Part shown: positions 18,001 through 21,520 of the stretch, piece by piece | How positions within the stretch are numbered: position 1 is the first letter of the stretch | How the letters are laid out: every line of letters starts with the position of its first letter | Source of the DNA: Oscillospiraceae bacterium | Lineage (GTDB): Bacteria; Bacillota; Clostridia; Oscillospirales; CAG-272 | NCBI GenBank assembly: GCA_015064885.1 | Contig: SVRJ01000004.1 | Location: forward strand, 18,623 to 82,622 | Direction: 5' to 3' | DNA length: 64,000 nt | The notes under the pieces: generated by a model | What the model was told of the DNA's origin: nothing | Seen by the model: only the letters and a program-made list of their open reading frames with translations | Databases searched by the model: none | Translations under genes and position numbers: made by a program

Positions 18001-18762
18001 ATGAAAATCAAGGTAATGACATTTAATCTTCGTACAGATACACCCGTAGACGGTATCAATAAGTTCACTGAACGAGTAGACCGCGTTAAAGAGGTAATAA
18101 TGAACGAGGATCCCGATCTTATAGGATTTCAGGAAGCCAAGGACAGCATGCGCGAATGGCTTCGCAACACGCTTTCCGACTACTGCATTTTCGGCTGCGG
18201 AAGAGACAAAAACTACTATGGAGAATCAACTGTTATTGCGGTAAAGAAGAATAAGTTTGAAGTAATCTCAATGGACAACTTCTGGTTATCTACAAACACC
18301 GAGCTCCCCGGAAGCAGATTCGGTATAGACCAGAGCAATTGCCCCAGAATAACCACGTGTGTAAGACTTTGCGCAAAGGAGATATCCGCTCCATTCTGGT
18401 TCTACAACACACACCTCGACCATAAGGGAAGCACGGCAAGACTTCTCGGCTCTACCGCCCTTATGCACGACATCGCGCTCCGCACAAGAGGCGAAAAGTA
18501 CGTTCTCACGGGTGATTTCAACGCCCTTCCCGACACACGCGAGATAGAATTCATCGTTAACGCAGGTGCTGCAGACGCAACAGCCACACTCGGCGGAACC
18601 TTCCACGGCTTCGGCAGACTTGAAAACAAGATAAAGATAGACTACATCTTCACAAACGCGGATTTCGATGCAAGTGAATCCTACGTTGTTGAAGATAACC
18701 CGGTTGAGGGAGTTTACATATCAGACCACAACCCCGTTTGCGGATTTATTGAGCTCAACTGA
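18001..18762 (+). CDS. Endonuclease/exonuclease/phosphatase family protein
   Basis: A 253-residue cytoplasmic member of the EEP fold (DNase I/inositol phosphatase superfamily). The metal and catalytic residues are visible: MTFNLR (Asn), IGFQEA (Glu), NTHLDHKG (His), TGDFNALPD (Asp/Asn), KIDYIF (Asp) and ISDHNPV (Asp/His). Such proteins cleave phosphodiester bonds in DNA, lipids or sugar phosphates; the substrate is not predictable, though the short form without membrane signal resembles the YafD/ElsH-type sugar-phosphate or nuclease members. AAAGGAG lies before the ATG. Its last 8 bases overlap the end of the convergent gene. Confidence 0.9.
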   Translation: MKIKVMTFNLRTDTPVDGINKFTERVDRVKEVIMNEDPDLIGFQEAKDSMREWLRNTLSDYCIFGCGRDKNYYGESTVIAVKKNKFEVISMDNFWLSTNTELPGSRFGIDQSNCPRITTCVRLCAKEISAPFWFYNTHLDHKGSTARLLGSTALMHDIALRTRGEKYVLTGDFNALPDTREIEFIVNAGAADATATLGGTFHGFGRLENKIKIDYIFTNADFDASESYVVEDNPVEGVYISDHNPVCGFIELN

Positions 18763-19160: not shown

Positions 19161-19397
19161 TTACACCCCCTCTTCATCATTGTACACATTATTCCCTATA
19201 CCGAGGTAATCGAAAAGATATTCCTCGTACGTTATGCCCAGAACCTCAAGGATCTCATACATACTCATCTCCCTGAGGCATTCAGTGCATAAAACGTTTC
19301 CGTCCACGATCCTGCAGTCGTTCGGATCGTAGATCGCACCGCCGCAACGATCGCATTCGAGCGGCATTTCGTCAAAATACTGATAAAATTCGGTCAT
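19161..19397 (-). CDS. Small zinc-ribbon-like protein of unknown function
   Basis: A 78-residue acidic protein with a four-cysteine cluster, ECDRCGGAIYDPNDCR then VLCTECLREM, resembling a treble-clef or LIM-like zinc site, followed by an amphipathic acidic helix (MYEILEVLGITYEEYLFDYLG). GGGAGG stands before the ATG. It is the first gene of a two-gene operon with the sigma-like protein. I do not recognise the family; a second small C4 protein of similar build is at 30930. Confidence 0.65.
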   Translation of the reverse strand: MTEFYQYFDEMPLECDRCGGAIYDPNDCRIVDGNVLCTECLREMSMYEILEVLGITYEEYLFDYLGIGNNVYNDEEGV

Positions 19398-19411
19398 TTG
19401 ACACCTCCCTT

Positions 19412-19440
19412 ATTATAAAAAAATTTGCACAGAGAACTTT
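19412..19440 (-). promoter_or_regulatory. Promoter of the small zinc-ribbon/sigma-like operon
   Basis: On the minus strand TATAAT (19412-19417) lies 17 bases from a poor -35 (AAAGTT, 19435-19440) that sits inside the LexA-type box at 19432-19447. Overlap of operator and -35 would give repression. Confidence 0.55.
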
Positions 19441-19447
19441 TGTTCTC
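19432..19447. promoter_or_regulatory. LexA/DinR-type SOS box 1
   Basis: GAGAACTTTTGTTCTC contains GAAC-N4-GTTC, the core of the Firmicute LexA operator, extended by matching GA/TC flanks. It covers the -35 of the minus-strand promoter. No lexA gene is in the window, so the regulator is inferred. Confidence 0.7.
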
Positions 19448-19540
19448 TTTTCGGAAAAATTATATCACAAACGCAATTGAATGTCAATACCAAAAAAGAC
19501 TTTTTTCTCTTTTTGGAATTTATCACAAACTCAGAATATC

Positions 19541-19554
19541 AGAACATATGTTCT
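19541..19554. promoter_or_regulatory. LexA/DinR-type SOS box 2
   Basis: AGAACATATGTTCT is a perfect 14-base palindrome with the GAAC-N4-GTTC core. It lies 38 bases before the ABC-F ATG, just ahead of a -10-like TATAAA at 19559, in what would be the promoter spacer. Confidence 0.7.
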
Positions 19555-19591
19555 TTAGTATAAATAGCAACAAAACAGGAGCGAGCATACG

Positions 19592-21520
19592 ATGATAAGC
19601 ATAGGAGCGGGAGATCTTTCCTTTTCCATAGGAACAAAAACAATACTCGACAGGATATCCTTTTCGCTTGAGGTCGGTGACAGACTCGGAGTCGTCGGAC
19701 TGAACGGAAGCGGAAAATCCACTCTTTTTAAATTGATAACGGGAGAATACGAAAGTACGGGCGGCTCGGTATACATTGCAAGCGGCGCTACCGTCGGCAT
19801 CCTAAAACAGAACGACGCATTTCTCAGCTGCAAGGAGAATGACACACCGCTTTCGATAATGTATTCCGCCTTCGATCATCTGATAAAGGAAGAAGAGCGA
19901 TTAAAGGAACTGGAAAAGAAAATAGAGATATACGGCAAGCACTGTCCGGAGCATATGACGAACGATTATGCCGAGGCATACAAAAGATTCTCGGACAACG
20001 GAGGTCTTCAGTTCCGCTCGCGCTGTACCTCTACCCTTCTGAAGATGGGATTTACCGAAAGTGAGATAAACGATTCCGCGGCAAAGCTGAGCGGAGGTCA
20101 GAAGACGCGCCTTGCTCTTGCCAGTCATCTGTGCACAGAGCCTGACATACTGCTTCTCGACGAGCCTACAAACCATCTTGATATAGGAACACTTTCCTGG
20201 CTTGAAGGCGTTCTCGCATCGTATAAAAAGACTCTTCTCGTTATTTCGCACGACCGTCTCTTCCTTGACCGTGTTACGAACAAGACTCTTTCCATAGAAT
20301 ACGGAAAAGCAAAGCTCTATAAGGGCAACTATACTCAGAGCCTTGCACAAAGGAAGGAGGACAGAGCGGCAGCCGAAAAGGCGTATATCCTTCAGCAAAA
20401 GGAGATCGCTCATCAGGAGGCGGTAATAGCAAAGCAAAAGCAATTCAACCGAGAGAGAAACATCAAAATGGCGGAGAGCCGGCAGAAAGCGCTTGACAGA
20501 ATGGTTCTCGTAGAAAAACCGAAGTCTGATCCCGCAAAGATGAAGCTGACCTTCAACCGATCGCTTGACGGCGGAAACGAGGTCATCATCTGCAAAAAGG
20601 TCACTGCGGGCTACGGTGACAATATTCTCTTCTCCGACCTCGACCTCCTTGTATCAAAGCAGGAAAAAGCATTTATCATCGGAGGAAACGGGTGCGGTAA
20701 GTCAACACTGATAAAAATAATTCTCTCAAAACTCATGCCTATATCGGGTAAGGTCGTTATGGGATACAACGTCCGAATAGGATACTACGATCAGGAAAAC
20801 CAAAATCTCGACGAGAGCAAGACCGTCCTTGCCGAGCTATGGGATGCCTATCCCAAAATGGCTGAAAAGGACGTGCGATCTACTCTTGCTTCCTTTCTGT
20901 TCTCTTATGCAGACACAGAAAAGCCGATCTCCGTACTCAGCGGAGGAGAACGCGCAAGGCTCACTCTTGCCAAGCTTATGCTTTCAGACAACAACTGCCT
21001 CGTTCTTGACGAGCCGACAAACCATCTCGATATAAATTCACGCGAGGTACTTGAGGATGCTCTTGAAAGATATACCGGAACCATCCTTTGCGTTTCACAC
21101 GACAGATATCTTATAAATAAGCTGGCAAGCAGGATAATAGAGATCGCGCCCAAGGGCTTCACCGTTCCCTCCATTGAATGCAAGGTCACGCCCGGTAAGG
21201 CATACGAGGAGTTCTGCGAATTCAAGGAGACAAGAGAGCGAAGCGGCATGCAAGGCGCGGAAGTGCAGATCCCCCAACGCACAGCCGGAAAGGATGACTA
21301 TCTTGCAAGCAAGCGCGATCTTGCCGAACAAAGAAAACAGCAACGGCTTATAGAAAAGCTGACAAGAGAGTCCGAGCAGCTTGAGCATGAGCTTTCCGAA
21401 ATAGAGAAAAAAATGAGCGGTGAGCTTTCCACCGATTATCATGCTTTGGCAGAGCTCTGTGAAAGGAAGGACGCCATTGAGGAGCGGTTGCTTGAGATAT
21501 ACGAGGTAATAATGAAATAA
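19592..21520 (+). CDS. ABC-F family ATPase, Uup/YdiF-like
   Basis: A 642-residue soluble protein with two ABC modules and no membrane segments. Module 1: [32 protein letters not shown]. Module 2: [36 protein letters not shown] charged linker (about 245-305, [20 protein letters not shown]) joins them, and a C-terminal coiled coil (about 560-642, [19 protein letters not shown]) is typical of Uup and related ABC-F proteins. ABC-F proteins act on ribosomes; Uup is also linked to DNA branch structures and precise transposon excision. The LexA-type box at its promoter would fit an SOS-linked role. AGGAG precedes the ATG. Confidence 0.92.

Follow-up and report, generated by a model that had tools for sequence, protein, structure and literature searches.

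A divergent promoter with LexA-type boxes beside an ABC-F gene in Clostridia, a predicted DNA-damage switch at which relatives appear to use a phage-type S24 repressor

HdiR of lactic acid bacteria is a damage regulator of umuC built from XRE and S24 parts. The LexA/SOS regulon of Bacillus and Clostridium is marked by the box GAAC-N4-GTTY, and the section of PMC4234289 used here gives AGGAACAAATGTTTGC for lexA and GAGAACAAATGTTTGT for recA of C. difficile. In Francisella, as set out in the portion of PMC13148647 used here, the co-opted phage S24 repressor FddR drives a small divergent damage unit. The ABC-F translation factors YbiT, YheS, Uup and EttA belong by sequence to the same family as the ATPase encoded at the locus described below. 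To our knowledge, none of them is an SOS gene. Our search of the literature on ABC-F proteins together with LexA, with SOS and mitomycin, or with S24 repressors, which left subscription journals mostly aside, turned up no such module.

The window, the whole 64-kb stretch of an Oscillospiraceae genome that we analysed, contains an ABC-F gene divergent from a small operon (Table 1). An earlier note on this DNA had described two GAAC-N4-GTTC boxes in a divergent spacer of 195 b. The boxes are real, palindromes of LexA-operator form (GAAC-N4-GTTC/T) within a promoter region, their cores 108 bases apart start to start; the spacer is 194 b long. The same note had placed box 1 over the -35 of the minus promoter, an overlap we dropped when the promoter scan set TTGACA at 19487 and box 1 downstream of the -10, where it lies over the expected transcription start of the minus operon. 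Box 2 does adjoin a TATAAA upstream of ABC-F, as had been proposed, with no good -35 there. The minus promoter is the only sigma-70-like site that the scan reports in 19380-19620, and the second promoter, on the ABC-F side, is probable, read by eye from the TATAAA and a weak -35 (3/6).

Table 1. Positions of the genes, boxes and promoter elements of the module in the window
Feature	Position	Strand	Details
Sigma-70 region-4-like small protein, 144 aa	18755..19189	-	Pfam PF08281, 26.1 bits (cut-off 25.7)
Small zinc-ribbon protein, 78 aa	19161..19397	-	CxxC...CxxC; first gene of minus operon
Intergenic spacer	19398-19591		194 b, between ORF 19161-19397 (-) and ABC-F ORF 19592-21520 (+)
Box 1, GAGAACTTTTGTTCTC	19432-19447		GAAC-N4-GTTC, core 19434-19445; 13 b downstream of minus-promoter -10
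Minus-operon promoter, TTGACA-17-TATAAT	19487-19459	-	sigma-70, 12/12, extended -10
Box 2, AGAACATATGTTCT	19541-19554		GAAC-N4-GTTC, core 19542-19553; directly before TATAAA 19559-19564
Probable ABC-F -10, TATAAA	19559-19564	+	by eye; absent from sigma-70 scan output
ABC-F ATPase, 642 aa, two ATP-binding domains	19592-21520	+	NCBIfam NF000355; Pfam ABC_tran x2 + ABC_tran_Xtn

The window has no other perfect GAAC-N4-GTTC site, and a count of two is at chance level (0.99 expected; at least two in 21 of 100 shuffles). This number, and the many orthologs that have no boxes, would fit chance palindromes that have no function in the source genome. That explanation is highly improbable when the arrangement of the sites is considered: two perfect sites in one such spacer have a P of about 1-2e-6 per spacer (2e-6 from the genome-wide rate, 9e-7 from the spacer's own composition), or about 0.003 under the assumption of 1500 such spacers. 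The placement relative to the promoter is also constant in seven genomes, and the site is an invariant block in five species of one genus.

Orthologs of the ABC-F protein occur in 330 of 390 family genomes at E <= 1e-100. We studied 110 loci (the 30 best of one search and the best 80 of 240), 87 of them distinct, and counted boxes in the 250 b upstream of each ABC-F. Upstream regions without an S24 gene hold five perfect boxes, in 4 of 52 loci, against 0.22 expected and a maximum of 2 in 100 shuffles. The four boxed loci come from the source genome, from G168 and G081 of genus g20, and from a g48 genome (L106, the same as G145); three more g20 genomes (G125, G205 and G019) are also boxed. All five g20 genomes sampled carry the box as an invariant block, CGAACAAATGTTCT, in variable surroundings. 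The seven boxed genomes represent three genera, and in every one of them a box lies 8-13 b downstream of the -10 of this perfect divergent promoter, which scores 12/12 in each of the four boxed loci of the set. The position of box 2 next to the ABC-F start is seen in the source genome only. Beyond the zinc-ribbon gene, as seen from the spacer, the g20 genomes have a second site, GAACATTTGTT[CT]. It precedes the sigma-like gene in three genomes; in the other two, G168 and G019, the stretch covered showed no sigma-like gene.

The search of orthologous spacers that the earlier note had suggested thus came out in two ways. The seven genomes keep the box at the same spot, but a perfect box is missing from the 250 b upstream in 83 of the 87 distinct loci, and we rejected conservation of the boxes across the family. 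The note had named missing boxes beside kept genes as what would refute it, and in part the loci show just this. Among the 83, an S24 gene takes the box's place in 35, and 48 have neither box nor S24 gene, some of them on truncated contigs.

Very probably the boxes do serve as operators, and most likely they belong to LexA. In a check of ten LexA loci for GAACN4GTTY within 350 b upstream, lexA was boxed with GAACAAATGTTT in G081, G205 and G145, all of which have a boxed ABC-F; these are the three lexA loci examined in boxed g20 and g48 genomes. It was unboxed in all six of G187, G047, G282, G102, G103 and G231, where the ABC-F is either unboxed or was not found. In G081 and G019 the g20 box also stands before an operon for an IMS (UmuC/DinB) polymerase. 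These two genomes hold 18 and 20 perfect sites, of which we fetched 7 and 8. Most of these were picked for their A+T-rich centres, so the sample is biased toward sites that look functional. Three other g20 sites were seen along the way (gene names by eye where given): in two species, a box-like GAACAAATGTTC/GAACATTTGTTC in the parB-serS interval (L173 3625, L176 2459), a box inside the start of rsmG, and, in G019, a GAACAAATGTTC box 124 b before the start of another XRE-S24 repressor gene (L180 768-779).

The source genome itself (2.29 Mb in 77 contigs, 91.5% complete) is less straightforward. It has 24 perfect sites, and of the 23 inspected (C72:14503 was left out) two are the intergenic pair in the window, 20 lie inside plausible coding ORFs, and one, C27:41719, precedes by 2 b a start codon of a gene that by eye is CCA-transferase-like. 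On the same contig, two GAACAATTGTTC palindromes lie 385 b apart within a RecG-like coding sequence, named by eye (C27:38409 and 38794; L003 3410 and 3795). A single protein of this genome has the LexA_DNA_bind domain, a LexA of wHTH and S24 parts. The earlier note had proposed finding lexA and comparing its box; the gene was found, with just GAACTTATGTAAC upstream, and the match is to be had in G081, G205 and G145 instead. GAACN4GTTY was not found upstream of the source genome's recA (L170) or dinB-like gene (L220), and recA was unboxed wherever it was checked in the family (23 loci were scanned, and we rely on G000, the source genome, and on G081, G205 and G019 alone). Among the seven genomes with an unboxed lexA, the source genome is the only one with a boxed ABC-F. 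Its LexA recognition helix departs from that of its relatives. Since its own lexA, recA and dinB have no box, the case for LexA binding in this species rests on the relatives, which for this species is the weakest point of the LexA reading.

The operators could instead serve another dimeric repressor, such as a sensor of antibiotics or ribosome stress, with the likeness to the Bacillus/Clostridium LexA box being convergent. A source genome in which we found no second LexA target, and whose LexA helix is divergent, fits this idea, as does the frequent drug induction of ABC-F resistance genes. We nevertheless consider it unlikely: the same motif stands before lexA in g20 and g48 and before the IMS polymerase operon in g20, and self-cleaving-type S24 repressors are found at the same promoter elsewhere. 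The sigma-like protein was a further candidate for owner of the boxes; we discarded it, since S24 loci without a box encode it as well.

LexA remains the preferred owner where boxes occur, and a different protein is encoded at many of the other loci. An XRE-S24 gene lies directly upstream of ABC-F, on the same strand, in 35 of the 87 distinct loci (L063 was dropped as a false match, the copy in L137 has no N-terminus, and L117, whose copy lies farther upstream, is uncounted). The gene ends 9-43 b before the ABC-F start and encodes a protein of about 200-210 aa with HTH and Peptidase_S24 domains (Pfam), classed as a phage transcriptional repressor by PHROGs. Thirteen aligned copies share an invariant A-G, which by analogy is the predicted cleavage position, the serine of GDSM and the lysine of TVKRF/TIKRF. 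Phage records matched by the protein are CI-type repressors, the best among the matches listed at 34%, and viral contigs gave one distant relative among 74 pattern matches. The divergent promoter is a perfect TTGACA-17-TATAAT in 31 of the 35 S24 loci, or 32 if one mismatch is allowed. In most of these loci a CGCATTTCCG/CGGANNTCCG-like motif sits between its -35 and -10, and this is the probable operator of the S24 repressor. The word TTCGGAAA is present in 26, and ATTTCCGA in 25, of 34 S24 upstream regions; when at least two operator-like words are required, a stricter count, 13 of 34 S24 loci qualify, as against 0 of 45 others and none of the 3 boxed loci for which 900 b was available. No perfect box occurs in any of the 35 S24 upstream regions. 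With boxes in some lineages and an S24 gene plus probable operator in others, one module seems to be governed by autoproteolytic repressors of two kinds.

The distribution of the two repressors across the family offers a lead. Of 390 genomes, 48 have an S24 protein with a match better than 1e-70; a limit of 1e-45 adds 12 g12 genomes with weaker matches, for a total of 60. A strong canonical LexA (E <= 1e-10) is present in just 182 of the 390. Strong LexA occurs in 7 of the 48 S24 genomes and 175 of the 342 others (Fisher 9e-7, a figure that ignores kinship, with incomplete genomes depressing both counts). Because related genomes are not independent, this anticorrelation is a lead only. On the ABC-F tree, from which the short L086 was omitted and in which L179 was included, the three boxed lineages do not group together (3 changes) and the S24 loci are spread (9 changes); the boxed state at ABC-F may have a single origin. 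We lean, by a small measure, toward the broader idea of a family-wide damage-induced translation module whose promoter is held by LexA or by a co-opted S24 repressor, with the repressor swapped repeatedly, the trigger kept constant, and, for some family members, a link between the swap and the loss of canonical LexA.

The ABC-F protein passes the ribosomal-protection-like model NF000355 (431.5 bits, cut-off 380) and falls far below the cut-offs of the OptrA, Vga, Msr, Lsa and Sal resistance models. It is possible, though we think it doubtful, that LexA controls the module for DNA repair proper, with the ABC-F acting on branched DNA like Uup. According to the part of PMC7470958 used here, Uup of E. 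coli binds Holliday junctions and acts together with RecG and RadD. The C-terminus of our protein has a weak match to ABC_tran_CTD (27.7 bits against a cut-off of 32). Yet the Uup model NF050005 scores 355.6 against a cut-off of 900, the ribosomal-protection-like model is passed, and the nearest solved relative by sequence is YbiT.

In the minus operon, the sigma-like protein resembles phage-type regulators (phrog_36, E 5e-11 in PHROGs), and its relatives adjoin ABC-F in other genomes. Its gene is convergent with a gene of the endonuclease/exonuclease/phosphatase family at 18001-18762 (+). The zinc-ribbon protein has no Pfam family above cut-off, and as a query it found no relative in a genome-contig collection; matches occur in 16 of 395 family genomes, the source genome included, and both CxxC pairs are kept across six aligned sequences. 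Two phage-like loci (L025 and L036) have a zinc-ribbon gene and GAACAAATGTTC sites, with a terminase-like gene nearby (by eye), which suggests that the zinc-ribbon family is also found in phages.

Our explanation of the whole is that the spacer is a bidirectional DNA-damage switch under LexA, and on the sequence evidence we hold this to be probably right. LexA, encoded by one gene in the source genome, would sit on box 1, downstream of a very strong promoter, and block the zinc-ribbon/sigma-like operon; on box 2 it would block ABC-F at that gene's promoter. We infer that RecA on single-stranded DNA would trigger LexA self-cleavage, so that both operons are expressed. For the ABC-F protein the most likely role is on ribosomes that stall in the damage response; its divergent partners, the zinc-ribbon and sigma-like proteins, probably serve as accessory transcription factors. 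In sister lineages, a phage-CI-type XRE-S24 repressor, encoded by the first gene of the ABC-F operon, would hold the same promoter. Since the same module and promoter are found there beside an S24 gene, damage control seems to have been kept and the repressor swapped. The sequences themselves establish the boxes, the promoter, the conservation and the S24 genes with their motif, from which we deduce binding by LexA, cleavage prompted by RecA, induction and the role of the ABC-F.

A damage-induced module of ABC-F, zinc-ribbon and sigma-like proteins, as the earlier note had imagined, is a well-supported prediction: relatives keep the site at the same spot or carry the gene of a self-cleaving phage-type repressor, and so the module looks damage-inducible. 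In its favour are boxes in seven genomes of three genera, a boxed lexA in two genera, and S24 genes at 35 of 87 loci; against it are the 83 loci where no perfect box occurs and a source genome in which no second LexA target turned up. Should the prediction hold, these Clostridia would answer DNA damage by inducing a ribosome factor of the ABC-F family, and SOS and translation would be tied together. The family would then also offer a natural example of one promoter at which the repressor has been replaced, LexA versus phage-type S24, and such a case tests how damage networks are rebuilt after LexA loss.

The module can be set beside several described systems. HdiR shares the XRE and S24 architecture of the repressor in the sister lineages, and its targets are different. 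The unit resembles that of FddR in joining a phage-like S24 repressor and a divergent gene into something self-contained, as far as the part of PMC13148647 used here describes it. The S24 gene here is instead co-oriented with ABC-F, the operator is different, and the source window has LexA-type boxes in place of any S24 gene. With the Bacillus/Clostridium SOS regulon the module shares the box itself, and the C. difficile boxes quoted above from part of PMC4234289 resemble those at lexA in g20 and g48; it differs in that recA is unboxed where checked in this family, and in that the target is an ABC-F/zinc-ribbon/sigma-like module.
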